IMG/VR virus record: IMGVR_UViG_3300008267_006907
Coordinates: 1-25,492 of that record
Reading direction: 5' to 3' (one strand)
Source of the DNA: a virus
Length of the DNA stretch: 25,492 nt
Shown here piece by piece: positions 7,945-23,841 of this stretch (position 1 is the stretch's first letter; the number at the start of each line of letters is the position of its first letter). Under the pieces are notes generated by a model. That model ran no database searches, had not been told where the DNA came from, and saw only the letters and a list, made by a program, of their open reading frames with translations. A program made the position numbers and the translations under genes.

Positions 7945-8838
7945 ATGAATAAAAAACAAGCCGTACTATCGCTCAGTGGAGGTATGGATTCCTCTACGCT
8001 ACTCTTACACCTTCTAGCAAATGACTACGAAGTTACCGCATTATCTTTTGACTACGGTCAGAAGCATAGAGTTGAACTAGAGAGAGCAAAGTCGCTAGTA
8101 GAGTATATTAACTCAAATAAAGCAGGTGTGGATATCGAAGCAACTACCGATTTTAGAACAACTAAAAGCCACTCTAAAGTAAGACATCAAATTATTACCC
8201 TCGATGGATTATCTCAGTTACTCAACTCCTCTTTAGTAGAAGGAGGTAACGATGTACCTGAAGGGCACTACGAACAGGATAACATGAAAGACACTGTTGT
8301 ACCTAACCGTAACAAAATCTTCTCATCTATCATCCAAGCCGTTGCACTATCTCTTGCAAATAAGCAAGCAGGAGATGACTGCACAATAAATCCAGAGGTG
8401 TATATCGCATTAGGCATTCATGCTGGTGATCACGCTATCTACCCAGACTGTAGACAGGAGTTTAGAGATGCTGATTACAGTGCATTCTTAATAGGGAACT
8501 GGGGTGCTGAAAATGTAACTTTTTATACGCCGTATCTTAATGCAGATAAGTTCGGTATTTTACAAGACGGACAGGAGTGCTGTGAAGTTTTAGGTCTTAG
8601 TTTTGAAGAAGTATATAGCCGTACTAATACGAGCTACAAACCTATTAAGCTTCAAACACCAGCAGGGCCTCGCTGGTTCTCTGATTATAAATCAGCTGCA
8701 TCTGTAGAACGTATTGAAGCTTTCGTCAAACTAGGTCGACCTGATCCTGTAAGATATGCTGATGAGATGGGACCTGTGAATTGGGAGACAGCTAAAGCAC
8801 ACGTAGAAAAAGTATTACTTGAACACGCAACCAAATAA
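7945..8838 (+). CDS. queC: QueC-like 7-cyano-7-deazaguanine (preQ0) synthase lacking the zinc cysteines
   Basis: QueC turns 7-carboxy-7-deazaguanine into preQ0 using ATP and ammonia. This 297-aa protein has the PP-loop SGGMDSS (residues 11-17), FDYGQKHRVE (35-44), TVVPNRN (117-123, usual FVPGRN) and GIHAGDHAIYPDCRQEF (157-173). The C-terminal part keeps the family frame (FVKLGRPDPVRYA), but all four zinc-ligand cysteines of E. coli QueC are missing. The usual TCY is TSY (S230), and the CGxCxxC knuckle is replaced by RWFSDYKSAAS (243-253). It is longer than typical QueC (about 220-240 aa) because of inserts near 60-115. It heads the queC-dpdA-queF-formyltransferase run with gaps of 5 bases or less. 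This is probably a phage subfamily rather than decay, as the rest is intact. Confidence 0.87.
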   Translation: MNKKQAVLSLSGGMDSSTLLLHLLANDYEVTALSFDYGQKHRVELERAKSLVEYINSNKAGVDIEATTDFRTTKSHSKVRHQIITLDGLSQLLNSSLVEGGNDVPEGHYEQDNMKDTVVPNRNKIFSSIIQAVALSLANKQAGDDCTINPEVYIALGIHAGDHAIYPDCRQEFRDADYSAFLIGNWGAENVTFYTPYLNADKFGILQDGQECCEVLGLSFEEVYSRTNTSYKPIKLQTPAGPRWFSDYKSAASVERIEAFVKLGRPDPVRYADEMGPVNWETAKAHVEKVLLEHATK

Positions 8839-11630: not shown

Positions 11631-12089
11631 ATGTTTATGTCATGTAAACTGTTTGACGGATACAGTACAATATTCCGTCAGTGGCGTGCAGAAGGGACGC
11701 ATTGCAGATTTATTCACGGGTACGGAATATCTTTCCGAATCTGGTTTGAAGGTGAGTTAGATGAGAGGAATTGGGTATGGGATTTTGGAGGAATGAAAAG
11801 AGCTAAGGGTAAGATTGATGGAATGAATCCTAAAGAATGGATGGACTATATGTTCGACCATACCTGTTTAGTAGCGGAAGATGATCCAGGTATAGGCGGA
11901 TTCAAAACCATGGATCAGCTAGGAGTTATTCAGTTAAGGTTATTACCTGCTGTAGGTGCTGAACAGTTCGCAAAGTTTATCTACGATAAAGTAAATACTT
12001 TTGTAGTAGAAGAGACTGCAGGTCGAGTTAAAGTATCTAAAGTAGAGTTCTACGAAAATAACAAGAACAGCGCAATCTATATACCTTGA
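11631..12089 (+). CDS. queD: QueD-like 6-carboxytetrahydropterin synthase, variant metal site
   Basis: QueD makes 6-carboxytetrahydropterin from dihydroneopterin triphosphate, the second step to preQ0. This 152-aa protein fits the family: THCRFIHGYGISF (23-35) with C25 as the catalytic Cys (C27 in E. coli), LDERNWVWDFGGMK (43-56), FDHTCLV with D76/H77 (D70/H71), and a late VEFYEN carrying the conserved Glu. Of the three zinc His of E. coli QueD, only the first of HGH is kept (H29); the second is Tyr31, and the earlier AAH His is Phe15 in YSTIFRQW. I believe other HGY-type QueD relatives share this, so it may be a subfamily trait. Start ATG 11631; Met3 is an alternative start. It overlaps the next gene by four bases. 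Confidence 0.8.
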   Translation: MFMSCKLFDGYSTIFRQWRAEGTHCRFIHGYGISFRIWFEGELDERNWVWDFGGMKRAKGKIDGMNPKEWMDYMFDHTCLVAEDDPGIGGFKTMDQLGVIQLRLLPAVGAEQFAKFIYDKVNTFVVEETAGRVKVSKVEFYENNKNSAIYIP

Positions 12090-12952: not shown

Positions 12953-13183
12953 ATGACAGTTAAACAATTAATCGACATCCTAGATCGCCTAGATCCAGAC
13001 CTAGAAGTATTCACTAGAGGATATGAAGGGGGATACGAGTATGCTGAGCTGAAAGGAGCTCCTATTGACGTAGCACTAGATTACTATAACGACGACGAGT
13101 GGTGGTATGGTAGACATCAAGTTGTCGATCTGGTAACAGACAACAAAGAAAACTATAAAATTGTAAAAGGAATAATACTATGA
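12953..13183 (+). CDS. Small acidic unknown protein
   Basis: This 76-aa acidic protein opens with MTVKQLIDILDRLDPDLEVFTRGYEGGYEYAEL, a pattern common in small phage and bacterial proteins of unknown role. It contains DDEWWYGRHQVVDLV and ends in a hydrophobic IVKGIIL. It lies three bases after the previous stop, and its own TGA overlaps the queE ATG (ATGA), so queE translation is probably coupled to it. Confidence 0.7.
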   Translation: MTVKQLIDILDRLDPDLEVFTRGYEGGYEYAELKGAPIDVALDYYNDDEWWYGRHQVVDLVTDNKENYKIVKGIIL

Positions 13184-13656
13184 GTAAAATCGATACACAC
13201 AAGCTGCTAATCAGCTCGGATTTCTATTCGGTACAAGGAGAAGGAATCTCCTCAGGTGTACCGTCCTACTTCGTCCGCTTAGGCATATGTAACCTAACTT
13301 GCGGTATGAGTAGAGCATTCACTAACGCTTTAATGAAGGAAAAATCATTAGAGGATGGTGAAATATTTGAAGGTGACTTACACAAGGAAGGTAAAGCAAC
13401 ATGGACTTGTGATAGTACATCTCAATGGCTATGGAGAGGTGAAGATAAAGAATTTCAATATCTGATTGATCAATGGAAAGAACAAGGTATCTATGAAGAT
13501 ATTAAGAACGGTACTATCCATATTATTTGGACTGGTGGTGAACCTACAATTAAAGGACATCAGGAAGCTATTAGTAACTTCATTAAGTACTGGAAATTAA
13601 GTGATCCATCTATTAACAAAGTTATATCAGGTGGTTTATCACATAGATCAAATTAA
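13180..13656 (+). pseudogene. queE: queE N-terminal part (7-carboxy-7-deazaguanine synthase), frame broken
   Basis: QueE is a radical-SAM enzyme that contracts 6-carboxytetrahydropterin to 7-carboxy-7-deazaguanine. This 158-aa reading frame has the QueE start (DFYSVQGEGISSGVPSYFVRLG) and CNLTC (from about residue 37). After an unusually long insert of about 38 residues it has TWTCDS, which together supply the three cluster cysteines. It then has IHIIWTGGEPTIKGHQEAI, the family GGEP region. I believe phage QueE proteins with this long insert exist. After FIKYWKLSDPSINK the frame runs into a nonhomologous VISGGLSHRSN and stops at 13656. The ETNGT motif expected at this point is absent from every frame, so a small deletion has shifted the frame. 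Alternatives are a sequencing error or an unrecognised recoding signal. Confidence 0.82.
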
Positions 13657-13975
13657 CTGTTCACCAAAGCTATCTAACTCAGGTATGACTGAGAAACAAC
13701 GTATCAATCCAGACGCAATCAAGCGTATAATGGAACATTCCAATTACCAATTTAAATTTGTTATTTCAAATGAAGAAGATGTTAAAGAATTATTCCGTGA
13801 CTTTGTTGTACCATTTAGCATACCTCTTACCAAAGTCGTTTGTATGCCAGGACTAGATAGTCAAACTGATTTTCATGAGCGTACTCAATTCGTATTAGAG
13901 ATGGCTAAGAAGTATAAATTTAGAGGCTTAACAAGATTGCACATTTCGGCTTGGAATTTGACACTTAATGTGTAA
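13601..13975 (+). pseudogene. queE: queE C-terminal part in the +1 frame
   Basis: Reading resumes one frame over with YHIDQINCSPKLSNSGMTEKQ, the conserved QueE segment after ETNGT. It continues through FKFVISNEEDVKELF and KVVCMPGLDSQTDFHERTQFVLEMAKKY to the expected end, RLHISAWNLTLNV. Apart from the lost motif the C-terminus looks complete. The listed start is just the first in-frame ATG (13601); another ATG at 13685 is possible. Without the N-terminal cysteine cluster this fragment cannot be active alone. Its final codons (aca ctt aat gtg taa) encode the same TLNV-stop as the repeated ends downstream but with different synonymous codons. Confidence 0.78.
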
Positions 13976-14001
13976 TTAGCTTGGGATAAAACGCTGAACC
14001 G

Positions 14002-14027
14002 TACTATTTATTATAAATAATATAGTA
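14002..14027 (+). promoter_or_regulatory. Hairpin covering the HNH gene start
   Basis: TACTAT (14002-14007) pairs with ATAGTA (14022-14027), and TTATT (14008-14012) pairs with AATAA (14016-14020), giving an 11-bp AT-rich stem with one bulge. The stem includes the A of the HNH start codon. T4 homing-endonuclease genes are known to carry hairpins that block early translation; this one could act likewise. A weak promoter-like TTG at 13981 with 21-base spacing lies upstream. Confidence 0.5.
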
Positions 14028-14671
14028 TGAAAGGTAAAAGAGATGTCGATGCAGAAAACTACGTATGCACAGCTTGTGGTACAGCTTTTAAGAGTGAGAC
14101 AGTTAAGAACCATGAACATAAATTCTGTAGCGATGTTTGCAGAATTAGATATGGATTTAAAGATGAGATCTGTGCTGAATGTAAGATATCAATAAGCATT
14201 AGAAGGAATAAGATGCGAAATAACTACTTCTGCTCTAAGAAATGCTACCACAGCTGGCAAAGCGTTAATGTAAAACCACCGCAGACTGAGAATAGAAAGG
14301 CTAGAGCTAATAGTCCAGAAGCTATCGAAAAGAGAAAGAAAACGTGGGAAGTTAGCGGAAGATTATTTAACTTTAAGGATAACAAAGATTGGAAGCGATA
14401 CTATAAAAAGTGCGACGCTTTGACTAGGGCAATAAAAGCTGAAATGTTAAAAGAGTGGGATGGTTACGATTACTACGACGGTGAGTATATTAAGCCTTAT
14501 CTAGAGCTGAGTGTTCATCATAAAAACTATCCTACATTAGATCATAAGTACCCCAGAAGCAAAGCATTTCAGGATGGACTTACACCACACGAGATTACAG
14601 TAAAAGAGAACCTTGTCTGGACTAAAAGAACTAACAATAGTAAAAAAGGTAATAAAACATTAAACGTATAA
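14027..14671 (+). CDS. HNH homing endonuclease with zinc-finger N-terminus
   Basis: This 214-aa protein has an N-terminal pair of treble-clef-like zinc motifs (CTACGTAF...FCSDVC, about 14-38; CAECKIS...FCSKKC, about 50-72). A basic linker follows, then an HNH nuclease core, LSVHHKNYPTLDHKYP through NLVWTKRTNNSKKG (about 160-208), with the HH, DH and two Asn positions of the family. Such free-standing enzymes cut a specific site in a related phage lacking the gene and spread by gene conversion. It sits immediately after the broken queE, separated by a start-codon hairpin. Its last residues, NKTLNV, do not look HNH-like. They match the expected QueE C-terminus and are encoded by a 17-bp repeat found at two further gene ends. 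Confidence 0.86.
   Translation: MKGKRDVDAENYVCTACGTAFKSETVKNHEHKFCSDVCRIRYGFKDEICAECKISISIRRNKMRNNYFCSKKCYHSWQSVNVKPPQTENRKARANSPEAIEKRKKTWEVSGRLFNFKDNKDWKRYYKKCDALTRAIKAEMLKEWDGYDYYDGEYIKPYLELSVHHKNYPTLDHKYPRSKAFQDGLTPHEITVKENLVWTKRTNNSKKGNKTLNV
14655..14671 (+). repeat. 17-bp direct repeat, copy 1 (queE-3'-end-like), at the HNH gene end
   Basis: AAACATTAAACGTATAA. In the HNH frame it encodes the terminal TLNV-stop. Identical copies are at 14960-14976 and 15182-15198; a synonymous form ends queE at 13961-13975. The next ATG is one base downstream. Confidence 0.9.
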
Positions 14672-14672
14672 C

Positions 14673-14960
14673 ATGAAAACAGGAACATCAAGACTAATGG
14701 ATAACGTACTAAACAAAGACAACGAAATAAACAAATCAGGTAATTACAACGAAGAATGGATTATCGATTCTCAGCAAGAACATACCTTAACAGAAAAGAA
14801 CTTCACCGTCTGTAATACTTTCGTACCAGGACCTGATTATGTAGGTTGCTACGCTCTTGGAGGAAACGTTGGATTGAAGATCTACTTTGGAAAGAAACCA
14901 AAATGGCTACACAGGAAAATGATGAAATTATGTTTAGGATGGGAATGGATTGATAATTAA
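14673..14960 (+). CDS. Unknown 95-aa protein in the HNH patch
   Basis: I do not recognise this protein. The N-terminus is polar and Asn-rich (MKTGTSRLMDNVLNKDNEINKSGNYNEEW). The middle contains VCNTFVPGPDYVGCYALGGNVGLKIYFG, and the C-terminus is basic and aromatic (KKPKWLHRKMMKLCLGWEWIDN), a tail I associate loosely with small phage proteins. It starts one base after repeat copy 1, and its stop codon abuts repeat copy 2. The repeat is therefore outside the reading frame here, unlike in its neighbours. It may be a cassette carried with the HNH gene. Confidence 0.62.
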   Translation: MKTGTSRLMDNVLNKDNEINKSGNYNEEWIIDSQQEHTLTEKNFTVCNTFVPGPDYVGCYALGGNVGLKIYFGKKPKWLHRKMMKLCLGWEWIDN

Positions 14961-14976
14961 AACATTAAACGTATAA
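14960..14976 (+). repeat. 17-bp direct repeat, copy 2, after the 95-aa gene
   Basis: AAACATTAAACGTATAA, identical to copies 1 and 3. Its first base is the last base of the preceding stop codon, so it is essentially intergenic. The next ATG is at 14980. Confidence 0.9.
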
Positions 14977-14979
14977 GTT

Positions 14980-15198
14980 ATGAATATAGACAATAGATAC
15001 ATAATCAAGGGTATTGACATTACTAAAAGAGAAAACGGATATAGAGTATTTACTATCCCAACTCAACACTTTGAAATAACTAGTTTGGATGAATTAACCA
15101 ACGAGAGATTTGAACAAGAAATTAAGAGACAGGAGAAGTATGAAAAAGATAGTTCTGAATTGTTTAGATTATTTTACGAAGAAACATTAAACGTATAA
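14980..15198 (+). CDS. Unknown 72-aa protein ending in the repeat-coded TLNV
   Basis: I do not recognise this small charged protein (MNIDNRYIIKGIDITKRENGYRVFTIPTQHFEITSL and onward). It has an apparent beta-rich N-terminus and a helical, Glu/Lys-rich C-terminus. The last four residues, TLNV, come from repeat copy 3, so the true protein may have been extended or re-terminated by the repeat. It starts three bases after repeat copy 2. No membrane segment and no cysteines. Confidence 0.6.
   Translation: MNIDNRYIIKGIDITKRENGYRVFTIPTQHFEITSLDELTNERFEQEIKRQEKYEKDSSELFRLFYEETLNV
15182..15198 (+). repeat. 17-bp direct repeat, copy 3, at the end of the 72-aa gene
   Basis: AAACATTAAACGTATAA, in frame with the 72-aa ORF as TLNV-stop. 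The next ORF's ATG begins one base later at 15200. Confidence 0.9.
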
Positions 15199-15199
15199 T

Positions 15200-15370
15200 A
15201 TGAGATTATTCAAGATACTTGTAAGACGTAAATCAGGAGAGGACGCCGGATACAAGTACGCTATGTCAGATAATATACTAGAAGCAAAACGATTACTAAA
15301 ATATAATTTTGGATGGATAGGTAGTTTTGGTAGTTGGGATGAGATTGAATACATTAAAAAAGATATATAA
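15200..15370 (+). CDS. Unknown 56-aa protein
   Basis: This short ORF starts one base after repeat copy 3. Its product has a basic N-terminus (MRLFKILVRRKSGED), then YKYAMSDNILEAKRLL and a Gly/Phe/Trp-rich end (FGWIGSFGSWDEIEYI). It has no recognised family. Its start, tight spacing to both neighbours (1 base each side) and normal codon use support it as a real gene; a minus-strand ORF over the same bases is less plausible. Confidence 0.55.
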   Translation: MRLFKILVRRKSGEDAGYKYAMSDNILEAKRLLKYNFGWIGSFGSWDEIEYIKKDI

Positions 15371-15371
15371 C

Positions 15372-15467
15372 ATGGAACAAGTAGCAGGTATAGCAATCCT
15401 ATTCTTATTTGGAGTATGCATCTACGGATTAATAGACGTAGCAAGACAAATATCAAAACTCAAATAA
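15372..15467 (+). CDS. 31-aa single-span membrane peptide
   Basis: This tiny ORF encodes a hydrophobic helix (VAGIAILFLFGVCIYGLIDVA) followed by a short basic tail (RQISKLK). The predicted topology is N-out, C-in. It starts one base after the preceding stop and ends directly against the next ATG (TAAATG), which supports translation. Very small phage membrane peptides of this type are common and usually uncharacterised. Confidence 0.5.
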   Translation: MEQVAGIAILFLFGVCIYGLIDVARQISKLK

Positions 15468-15710
15468 ATGACACCAGAACAATTTGAAAGCTGGCACGTG
15501 GTAGCAGCCGATAAAGAATGCTTTGTACTAGCTACTGACCAAGTAGATTCAAGATGGTTCGAGCTCAGCTACTGCACACCCACCCAACGTCTACAGATCC
15601 TAAAAGCACACCAGCATCCGGTTGGAGGCAAGATAAGATCAACTATCTACGACGGCAAGTGTCCTGACATAGAAACATTCAAACACCTTTCAAAATTATT
15701 AGAGATATGA
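15468..15710 (+). CDS. Unknown 80-aa protein
   Basis: This soluble small protein (MTPEQFESWHVVAADKECFVLATDQVDSRWFELSYC and onward) has three cysteines that are not in a recognisable metal motif. It has a Trp/Phe core and a C-terminal helix (DIETFKHLSKLLEI). I do not recognise a family. The start abuts the stop of the 31-aa membrane peptide. It is followed by 39 bases of noncoding sequence with no clear signal. Confidence 0.6.
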   Translation: MTPEQFESWHVVAADKECFVLATDQVDSRWFELSYCTPTQRLQILKAHQHPVGGKIRSTIYDGKCPDIETFKHLSKLLEI

Positions 15711-15749
15711 CGGAATAATCCCTCCGAGCAGCTCAAAAGCACCTAACGA

Positions 15750-15965
15750 ATGACAATAGAACTAAGCCAAGAAACAATCTACACCGGAGCAGTACTTGTA
15801 TTGATGGCTATACAAATCTGGCAGCACTATAAGATTACTAAGCTAGAAACTCAAACATTTCAAATCTGGAATCAGATCAGTATCTTAGTAGCATCTATTA
15901 GCGGTAAGCTTTTAGACCTGGATAAAAAGATTGACGATAGAGTTGGAAAATCGACTAAAGATTAA
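15750..15965 (+). CDS. Small membrane-anchored protein with coiled-coil-like tail
   Basis: This 71-aa protein has one predicted N-terminal membrane helix (YTGAVLVLMAIQIW, about 11-24). An amphipathic helical segment follows (YKITKLETQTFQIWNQISILVASISGKLLDLDKKIDDRV). This anchor-plus-coil layout is seen in phage inner-membrane accessory proteins such as spanin or lysis-control components. No lysis genes are nearby, so no function is assigned. Its 3' end contains the folE promoter. Confidence 0.6.
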   Translation: MTIELSQETIYTGAVLVLMAIQIWQHYKITKLETQTFQIWNQISILVASISGKLLDLDKKIDDRVGKSTKD

Positions 15966-15973
15966 TATATTAT
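15943..15973 (+). promoter_or_regulatory. Promoter TTG-N20-TATATTAT before folE
   Basis: TTG at 15943-15945, 20 bases, TATATTAT at 15966-15973, ATG 4 bases later at 15978. The -7 element is less perfect than TATCTTTA, but the spacing is identical to other sites. Confidence 0.52.
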
Positions 15974-15977
15974 CGCT

Positions 15978-16691
15978 ATGAATAGAGACAAACACATAAA
16001 AATTGAAGACCTGGAATTAGCAGCTCCCGGTCATGCTAATGGCATTTCAACACAGCTCGCTGCTAAAGTAGACTACCATAAGATGGAAATCTCTCTAACT
16101 CCGGATGAGAAGTTTGCAATCATTGAAAAAGCTGCCGAGCATTTCGGTAATTTCTTAACTGCACTCGGAGTGGATTGGAGAAATGATCCTAATAGCTCGA
16201 ATACACCTCGCCGTGTTGCTAAAGCTTACGTAAATGATCTATGGAGAGGACGTTATGAATGTTTAGATTCTGTGATATCCTTCCCTTCTGACGGGTATAC
16301 AGGACTGGTATTCGAAGGTAATATCCCTGTCGTCTCCATGTGCTCACACCATCACCAGCAAATATCTGGCAGAGTACATATCGCTTATATTCCCACAGCG
16401 GAAGGTAGGGTGATTGGATTATCGAAGCTTAATCGTATTGTAGAGCATTTCGGTAGAAGAGGTGCAATTCAAGAGCAGTTAACCGTAGCTATTCACAATG
16501 CAGTAAATAAGATCTGTGAAGGTAATCAAGGTGTGGCTGTAATGATTGAAGCAGGTCATAGCTGTGTATCTTGTAGAGGAGTTAAGCATCAAGGTGCTAG
16601 TATGATTACCTCTAAGCTAACTGGTGCATTTATGGAAGAAGATGCTTGTAGGAATGAGTTTTACGAGTTTGTAAAAAATAGTAAGAAGTAA
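15978..16691 (+). CDS. folE: GTP cyclohydrolase I
   Basis: FolE converts GTP to dihydroneopterin triphosphate, the entry step to folates and to preQ0. This 237-aa protein has the complete catalytic set: NTPRRVAKAY (75-84), VVSMCSHHHQQISGRVHIAYIP (118-139) with zinc ligands C122 and H125, IGLSKLNRIVEHFGRR (146-161), and the third zinc ligand in EAGHSCVSCRGVKHQGA (C196). Length is typical (E. coli 222 aa) with a small N-terminal extension. Here it most likely feeds the phage 7-deazaguanine pathway together with QueD, QueE and QueC. It is separated from that cluster by the HNH patch, which may have been inserted between them. It has its own promoter and a predicted leaderless start. Confidence 0.94.
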   Translation: MNRDKHIKIEDLELAAPGHANGISTQLAAKVDYHKMEISLTPDEKFAIIEKAAEHFGNFLTALGVDWRNDPNSSNTPRRVAKAYVNDLWRGRYECLDSVISFPSDGYTGLVFEGNIPVVSMCSHHHQQISGRVHIAYIPTAEGRVIGLSKLNRIVEHFGRRGAIQEQLTVAIHNAVNKICEGNQGVAVMIEAGHSCVSCRGVKHQGASMITSKLTGAFMEEDACRNEFYEFVKNSKK

Positions 16692-22119: not shown

Positions 22120-23841
22120 ATGATACAGAACATTACAGGAACAGAACTCAAGAGTAAACTGCTGCAAGGCATCAAGCAATTGAATCAAGCAGTATCTTCA
22201 ACACTAGGTCCAGGCGGACGTACAGTATTGATTGAAGACCCCGTTAACGGAATTAAAGTAACTAAAGACGGTGTAACAGTAGCAAAAGCCTTTACCGAAG
22301 TTAAAGACGAGATCGAGAATATTGGCGCACAGTTAGTAAAGCAAGTCTCTATTAAATCTGCTAACGAAGCAGGAGACGGAACTACAACCTCTACTCTATT
22401 GACTACCGTGATGGTAGAAGAGGGATTGAAGCTTATCGACCAAGGATCTACTCCGGTAGAAGTTAAGAAGGGTATCGATAAAGCAGTTAGCTTGGTAGTA
22501 GAGGAGTTAAAGAAACAAGCTCAAGACATTACTACAGAAGATCAGATCAAACAAGTAGCTGCTATCTCAGGTAATAACGATGAAGAAGTAGGTAACTTGA
22601 TTGCTACTGCTATTGAAAAAGTTGGTAGAGAAGGTATTGTATCTATCGAAGAATCTAAGACTGGTGAAACAGAATTAGAGGTTGTAGAAGGTATGCAGTT
22701 TGATAGAGGTTATAAGTCTCCTTACTTTGTAACTAACAACAATACCATGCAAGCTGTTCTTGAAGATCCATATATTTTGATCTACGACGGTAGAATCTCT
22801 ACAGCTCAAGAGCTTATCCCAGTATTAAATAAGGTTAGCGCTGAAAATAAATCTCTGCTCCTAGTAGCTGAAGACTTCGGTGATGAAGCTCTTGCAACAC
22901 TTATCGTAAACAAGATGAGAGGTATTGTTAAAGCTTGTGCAGTTAAAGCACCAGATTTTGGTGAACGCAAGACCTTATTGCTTGAAGATCTCGCGGTTCT
23001 AACTGGAGGTCAAGTAATTAGTAAGGATAAGGGCTTAAAACTGGATAAACTAGGGGCAAATCAGTTAGACCCTTATTTAGGTAAGTGTAGAACGGTAACT
23101 GTAGAGAAAGAGAAGACGACAGTAATCGACGGTAAAGGAACTGAAGAAGCTATTACAGCTCGTACGCTCGAAATCAAAGATCAGATCGAAAGACCTGGAG
23201 TATCACCCTATGAAAAAGAAAAGCTTCAAGAAAGACTTGGTAAGTTGATCGGAGGTGTAGCTATTATCTCAGTAGGAGGTAACTCTGAAATTGAAATTAA
23301 AGAGAAGAAAGATAGAGTAGAAGATGCTCTATTTGCTACTAAAGCTGCTCTAGCAGAAGGTATTGTACCGGGCGGAGGTATTGCATTGATTAATGCTTTT
23401 AATCTCGCTGTAGCCAAGACCTCAGAGTGGTCTGATAACGAGAAGAAAGGCGTTAAAATTGTACATCAGGCCTGTTACGCACCATTCAAAAAGATCCTCT
23501 CTAATGCAGGTATGGAGAATTGGTATGAAATCTTACACAGAGTTTCACAATCCAAACTTAAGAATGCTACCTACGATGCAAAAGCTAGCGTAGTTGTTGA
23601 TCCATTCTCTTCTGGACTTCTAGATCCTGTAAAGGTAACTAGAGTAGCTCTAGAGAATGCTGCATCAGTGGCTGGTACCATTCTAACTACCATTCTTGTT
23701 GCAGCTGTAGCATTTGCATTCACAGCTTGTAATTCAGGTGCTAGCACAAACGCTACAACACCAGTGACTGATTCAACAACAGTTGATTCTTGCAAGACGA
23801 CTTGCGACTCTACCGTAGTTGCAGTTGACACCGCTAAGTAA
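22120..23841 (+). CDS. groEL: GroEL chaperonin with a lipoprotein-like C-terminal extension
   Basis: This 573-aa protein is a full GroEL subunit up to about residue 524: [20 protein letters not shown] (Asp52 equivalent), [11 protein letters not shown] (ATPase Asp87 equivalent), and [21 protein letters not shown] (Asp398 equivalent). It also has the equatorial end [15 protein letters not shown]. coli GroEL then ends with about 25 mostly Gly/Met residues. Here about 49 residues follow: [13 protein letters not shown], a hydrophobic helix with lipobox-like FTAC (C537), then a Ser/Thr/Asp-rich tail with two more Cys. That tail looks like a small exported Bacteroidota lipoprotein. The shared ILTT suggests a microhomology fusion. 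The extension is cytoplasmic unless the protein is exported, so its effect on folding or membrane association is unknown. Confidence 0.92.

Follow-up and report, generated by a model that had tools for sequence, protein, structure and literature searches.

Comparison of related phage sequences indicated that the last codons of the phage gene queE probably represent a landing place for homing endonucleases, at which cassettes of small genes have subsequently built up. The window analyzed, i.e., the whole stretch of 25,492 nucleotides of the IMG/VR virus record IMGVR_UViG_3300008267_006907, was compared with related loci, all of which are metagenomic sequences. As read from their alignment, these loci display a defined insertion point, recoded queE ends, displaced native ends, empty sites, a deletion scar and shuffling of small genes with breakpoints at the displaced ends. 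The encoded enzymes would cut the region of the native queE tail, recoding of the tail would protect the new allele, and repair at tail copies would build the arrays.

Structure of the queE locus in the window

Scanning of the whole window for the 17-mer AAACATTAAACGTATAA revealed three exact copies on the plus strand (14655-14671, 14960-14976 and 15182-15198), each followed by an ATG after 1–3 nt, which confirms the positions given in the original prediction. No further copies were found in the window, even at three mismatches (shuffle expectation at this threshold: mean 0.22). TLNV followed by a stop, as encoded by the 17-mer, forms the C-terminal end of the HNH frame (GNKTLNV) and of the 72-aa frame (ETLNV). 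A queE-like end had been noted after all three genes; TLNV is encoded by it in the two frames mentioned, but not in the 95-aa gene, where the first base of the copy at 14960 is the final base of the gene's TAA and no TLNV is added. The end of the window's queE reads NLTLNV in codons other than those of the 17-mer (AAT TTG ACA CTT AAT GTG TAA, 13955-13975), as had been noted before. An imperfect dyad within the 17-mer, TTAAACGTATAA, was discarded, since chance suffices to explain it according to a rough hand estimate. The following features were assigned to the locus:

13180..13656, plus strand: queE (7-carboxy-7-deazaguanine synthase), 5' part up to the frameshift (tblastn, alignment of relatives)
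13601..13975, plus strand: queE 3' part in the shifted frame, ending in ...RLHISAWNLTLNV-stop (frame and comparison with relatives)
13958..13975, plus strand: recoded queE tail A, TTG ACA CTT AAT GTG TAA, currently joined to queE
13976..14002, plus strand: ghost queE tail B, TTAGCTTGGGATAAAACGCTGAACCGT, reading AWDKTLNR, not translated with queE
14001..14029, plus strand: AT-rich inverted repeat around TATTTATTATAAATA, pairing with the HNH start codon
14027..14671, plus strand: HNH endonuclease, 214 aa (PHROG 1271 match)
14653..14671, plus strand: displaced native queE tail C1, from which the HNH gene takes its final codons and stop
14673..14960, plus strand: cassette gene o95, 95 aa (same cassette in locus L029)
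14958..14976, plus strand: displaced tail copy C2 (17-mer scan)
14980..15198, plus strand: cassette gene o72, 72 aa, ending in ETLNV via the tail copy
15182..15198, plus strand: displaced tail copy C3 (17-mer scan)
15200..15370, plus strand: o56, located directly behind queE's own tail in the endonuclease-free loci L081 and L100

Compared to locus L057, 77 bp are missing from the window's queE after position 13638, so that the ETNGT segment is lost and the frame is shifted; the gene is therefore split over the overlapping ORFs 13180-13656 and 13601-13975. This loss represents either real decay of the gene (pseudogene) or an assembly error. About 70 related queE loci were identified by tblastn; TIGR QueE matches obtained for the relative L064 were weak. 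The region had no blastn match among phage records, queE in isolates was found by protein only, at below 60% identity, and a bacterial genome scan yielded no queE relatives. Further deazaguanine-pathway genes of the window encode QueC (7945-8838) and a PTPS/QueD-like protein (11631-12089), and a FolE-like protein (15978-16691) was called by resemblance. Moreover, RecA-like, DnaB, ribonucleotide reductase and GroEL genes are encoded. The C-terminus of the GroEL-like chaperonin (22120-23841; Cpn60, 1.2e-62) enters an unusual stretch that is lipoprotein-signal-like and then continues as a Thr/Ser-rich tail.

The 17-mer represents the native end of queE

Relatives were collected in two samples. 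An exact 17-mer scan of viral contigs yielded 104 stretches; because the search word itself skews such a sample, a second one was chosen via the QueE protein alone, using patterns in its N-terminal half (73 unique loci). In most of the 104 stretches, the 17-mer is the queE end itself (...TGG AAT/GAT AAA ACA TTA AAC GTA TAA). Within the QueE-protein sample, AAACATTAAACGTATAA (23/73) and AAACATTAAATGTATAA (17/73) were the commonest queE ends, and in the pooled samples 87 of 113 non-redundant loci feature an end with at most two mismatches to the 17-mer. Codon entropies of the queE tail rank 11th to 118th of 180 and are unexceptional beside other conserved QueE residues. The 17-mer is therefore simply the native coding end, and constraint at the DNA level, which was considered for this tail, is not supported, codon conservation being ordinary within queE.

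The 17-mer is AT-rich, supplies stop codons and is mostly followed by an ATG after 1–3 nt, features that would also suit a translation-start, coupling or promoter element that was copied in front of genes and matches queE incidentally. Its distribution argues against such a function. None of the pooled queE loci contains a copy upstream of queE or, near queE, on the opposite strand. A search of 18 whole records, together about 2.3 Mb, with up to one mismatch placed 25 of 27 matches at the queE flank or in small-gene arrays, and since the remaining two, with one mismatch each, compare to one match of a reversed control pattern, the 17-mer is very unlikely to be a general start or promoter signal. 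Furthermore, displaced copies retain queE allele variants such as TAG, and flanking sequence identity breaks at the copies. Taken together, an element matching queE by coincidence has very little probability, and the shared translation-start or regulatory sequence offered as alternative in the original prediction is contradicted by whole-record counts and allele matching. In relatives without the HNH gene, the 17-mer was literally found to precede many genes, an observation named there as refuting, but the copies in question are queE ends or cassette junctions.

Element-free loci and the origin of the displaced tails

The HNH gene, o95 and o72 are absent from L081 and L100, where a single nucleotide separates the native tail of queE from a relative of o56. 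The window has the same 1-nt spacer between the third 17-mer and o56; HNH, o95 and o72 are inserted between queE and o56, each followed by a displaced tail. The expectation for endonuclease-free relatives is borne out by these loci: queE ends in aca-tta-aay-gta-taa, and o56 follows directly. Corresponding pairs were observed for other gene families. F38 is located directly behind queE with a TAG-ending tail in L111; the tail preceding it in L116 and L033 is a displaced copy that shares this TAG. The same match of queE-tail and displaced-tail context was found for F80 in L015 and L023. F28 is preceded by an identical 16-nt spacer in L048 and in L097, the latter representing the empty site. The displaced tail before F31 in L122 carries the AAT variant, as does the queE tail before F31 in L117 and L125; L117 is among the element-free sites compared with displaced tails. 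Since displaced copies carry the alleles of matching queE ends, they are former queE ends and not a look-alike repeated motif. Their left border is sharp, with A at position -1 in 64 of 68 and T at -2 in 48 of 68 copies and variable positions beyond, from which a displaced unit of 17–19 bp is deduced.

Endonucleases behind recoded queE tails

The HNH protein of the window comprises an N-terminal zinc-finger region and the C-terminal core LDHKYPRS..ENLVW..TNNSKKG. It matched the PHROG 1271 HNH endonuclease (1.3e-11), and weakly, below the cut-off, Pfam HNH_4 (0.03). A PDB sequence search gave no useful match, and the AlphaFold model is uninformative (mean pLDDT 37.7). A single-query scan with this protein retrieved no relatives; an alignment-based scan found them in L044 and G018 only. 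Another family is endonuclease-VII/HNH-like (L020 and L116; PHROG 1035, 3e-13 for L116). The protein of L133, with relatives in L113, L197 and L170, matched endonuclease and homing-endonuclease PHROGs; we take it to be Vsr-like from its YDFYLP..IEYNGLQHY motif. At the same place, L030 encodes a protein matching NUMOD3 (4.6e-15) and HNH_3 (9.4e-11), both over the Pfam cut-off.

The placed endonucleases, from the three unrelated families (9/9) plus the NUMOD3/HNH_3 protein of L030, are located directly behind a queE with recoded tail, and a displaced native tail is present at the endonuclease 3' end in all but L170, for which no displaced copy was found within two mismatches and which does not appear in the endonuclease-centred scans. 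In these scans, conducted for the three families with close homologues defined by 67% identity or more, all close homologues lie directly behind a recoded queE tail, and a displaced native tail abuts the 3' end of the gene. The endonuclease ORFs sit inside the 3' coding end of queE, at about the N/D-K codon border. Ends joined in frame to queE are recoded versions of TLNV or similar in all endonuclease-bearing loci, with the frameshift of the window's queE located upstream; tail A of the window differs from the native 17-mer by six mismatches. In the sample chosen by QueE protein only, loci with an endonuclease as first gene had a tail with at least four mismatches in 4/4 cases, versus 7/69 of the other loci (Fisher p = 3e-4).

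On a QueE tree built without the tail, the recoded state requires 15 changes, no fewer than in shuffles. Well supported branches necessitate at least five of these, so that recoding arose repeatedly. L134, L153 and L166 feature recoded or divergent tails without endonuclease or displaced copy, which may be due to ordinary drift. A group I intron is not indicated, as Rfam intron matches were absent from positions 13000-16000 and the endonuclease lies after the queE stop.

Recoded queE tails together with displaced native tails, in all close HNH relatives and in two further families, support the proposed entry of the HNH gene at the queE 3' end. Its predicted consequence, a restored queE, is seen in the intact genes of L113, L116, L133 and G018, but not in the window copy with its internal deletion; because the 77-bp deletion breaks the latter gene, restoration is limited to the intact relatives.

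Alternatively, ordinary homologous and illegitimate recombination during co-infection, using the tail as short shared sequence, would shuffle the genes at this place, and endonucleases would ride along without driving cassette movement. Many arrays without an endonuclease, cassettes in records lacking queE and the RecA-like protein encoded in the window fit this explanation. It accounts less well for three or four unrelated endonuclease families with one landing point and recoded tails, a convergence suggesting targeting, and for scars of past endonucleases in L122, L145 and L016, which now lack them. We regard recombination of this kind as the less likely explanation and prefer homing to the queE end.

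AT-rich TATTTATTATAAATA-like stretches were observed just before endonucleases of different families (window, L044, L116, L020, L030 and L192), and pairing with the start codon is possible in several cases; RNA folding of the inverted repeat before the HNH gene gave z = -1.65 for the window and -3.5 for L044. A T4-like late promoter, TATAAATA, at 14012 before the HNH gene was rejected, the window containing three matches versus 3.25 expected; by T4 spacing, its transcript would presumably begin at about the HNH ATG. Further GIY-YIG and HNH-type endonuclease-like genes were noticed downstream of queE and away from tail copies in L148, L009, L036, L153, L015 and L137. The interval between queE and folE or beyond is endonuclease-rich.

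Successive invasions, losses and scars

L044 and G018 likewise carry the ghost tail TTAGCTTGGGATAAAACGCTGAACCGT in their HNH elements. The functional queE tails differ among the window, L044 and G018 (NLTLNV, AYNQTLNV and DRVINV). Two successive tail replacements offer the simplest reading of this arrangement. Since the ghost tail lies between the functional tail and the HNH gene, the functional tail may have arrived independently of this HNH gene. The assumption that the HNH gene brought the recoded end has accordingly to be modified: the ghost tail points to nested invasions, and an origin of the present tail from this HNH element is not required.

In L122, a recoded tail and the last bases of an L116-type element are joined at a TAGAAAA repeat and the endonuclease is gone, by which this locus is recognizable as an endonuclease-deletion scar. 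L145 and L016 possess the NQVLNK tail of the L170 element, presumed to be Vsr-like, and lack the gene. Judged by their sequences, invasion, loss and scars are all represented among these loci.

Exchange of small-gene cassettes between tail copies

Nearly identical cassettes were detected in different phage contexts, often with unrelated DNA on either side. The cassette shared by L022 and L104 (173 bp) is 100% identical, with flanks at 0.32 and 0.37, and that of L015 and L023 (185 bp) is likewise 100% identical; further pairs reached 97% (L030/L104) and 92% (L122/L099) identity. The o95 cassette, lying between two tail copies in L029, shares 76% DNA identity with that of the window, and its flanks are unrelated. 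Relatives of o72 were not found among the loci of the exact 17-mer contig scan. In total, 41 families start right after a tail copy, and 17 of these occur behind at least two different upstream neighbours. These alignments show that phages exchange small genes as cassettes, the breakpoints coinciding with tail copies. Arrays are also present in records without detected queE, including records of 108, 66 and 61 kb. Tail cassettes beside a dUTPase-like or other unrelated upstream gene were found in records without queE match (L025, L056, L072, L078, L033 and L089); the gene before the arrays in L025, L056 and L078 is presumably dUTPase-like, judging from its GSGGFGSTG motif. As the records are fragments, queE possibly lies outside of them. 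The original prediction that later genes entered or duplicated at the same site is consequently amended to mobile cassettes, some of which reside in records without queE.

Units consisting of a gene and a 3' repeat, which all point the same way, pile up at a fixed site and are exchanged among phages, resemble the products of a site-specific recombinase moving integron-like cassettes; the queE tail would then be the attachment site, and the endonucleases mere cassettes. Among 14 large records, serine recombinases (PF00239) were absent, and a tyrosine recombinase (PF00589) was found in one, away from the array; moreover, a conservative recombinase would not predict recoded tails before endonucleases. 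This explanation is accordingly improbable. Homologous recombination is the likelier agent, given the near-absence of recombinases and the RecA-like protein encoded in the window.

Short repeats can confuse assemblies, and metagenome contigs misjoined at a 17-bp repeat would mimic cassette exchange. The same junctions were recovered across different samples (L006/L015/L074, L022/L060 and L062/L086/L094), and the arrays form coherent reading frames. Usual assembly word lengths exceed 17 bp, the length of the repeat. An assembly artefact is thus highly improbable, even more so than a copied start element.

Proposed mechanism

As comparison of the loci shows, the endonuclease gene enters the queE end ...W-(N/D)-K-T-L-N-V-stop roughly between the Asn/Asp and Lys codons; according to the preferred reading, homing to this end, the cut in the native sequence would be expected near GAT|AAAACATT. 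The inserted DNA starts with re-spelled last codons, by which QueE is completed and the split site altered, and carries the endonuclease along. The original tail of 17–19 nt is thereby pushed downstream of the inserted gene. Since displaced tails near the endonuclease stay intact, the target must extend upstream of the tail for self-protection. Further endonucleases may re-invade, leaving a ghost tail, or be deleted, leaving a recoded tail and a displaced native tail as scar. The exchange of cassettes may most simply be explained if molecules are joined at the short tails, be it when nearby breaks are repaired or when phages recombine in the ordinary way. Cassettes in queE-less records are not explained by a queE-centred model alone.

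As an extension of this model, the queE tail might act as the joining point of an integrase-free gene capture, in which repeated endonuclease-induced breaks, with repair stopping at any tail copy, would insert or delete whole small genes or pass them on between phages; homing endonucleases would thereby build arrays of cassettes with cargo genes. We propose this extension only tentatively and consider it somewhat doubtful.

Comparison with known systems

A published account of the phage queE system or its cassette arrays was not found in a literature search, from which subscription journals were largely beyond reach. The loci described here show convergence of unrelated endonuclease families on one codon-level phage site, each with a gene-mending recoded end. 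If the mechanism holds true, selfish endonucleases could cause phages to acquire and swap small genes, no integrase being required. Moreover, empty sites, scars and matched alleles form a natural series in which the cycle of invasion and loss of homing endonucleases can be followed.

The parallel to fungal mitochondria drawn in the original prediction is well founded, since mobile ORFs with replacement C-termini are documented for atp6 of Allomyces and for atp6, atp9, cox2 and nad3 of Glomus (PMC3630166). In both systems, an endonuclease ORF is located at the 3' end of a gene, a divergent, protein-equivalent end is fused in frame, and the native end, close to that of element-free relatives, is left downstream (PMC3630166). 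In contrast to the fungal elements, the queE system resides in phages and replaces only about six codons; furthermore, the queE site takes at least three unrelated endonuclease families as well as chains of small genes with copies of the old end.

Free-standing seg/mob homing endonucleases of T4-like phages (PMC2988022) and the endonuclease islands of ICP1-like phages (PMC10448857), as described in passages of these papers, likewise lie between phage genes and share turnover, loss and placement beside conserved genes with the queE elements. According to one such passage, the cutting sites of free-standing T4 enzymes are hundreds to thousands of bp away from the genes encoding them (PMC2988022), whereas the queE insertion lies in the last codons and recodes the gene end. 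Passages of the T4 and ICP1 papers matching the search terms contain no mention of recoded gene ends (PMC2988022, PMC10448857). SegB-driven amplification in phage T6 is comparable with regard to endonuclease-linked rearrangement and microhomology junctions, but represents tandem amplification of one unit under selection (PMC13096335), whereas queE arrays string together different genes.

With integron cassettes, the arrays have in common small genes, a repeat on the 3' side and stacking at a fixed site. They differ from integrons in that no integrase linked to them was found in the 14 large records, and in that the repeat, with a shared unit of 17–19 bp, is a piece of the coding end of a host gene, which is recoded by endonuclease elements.
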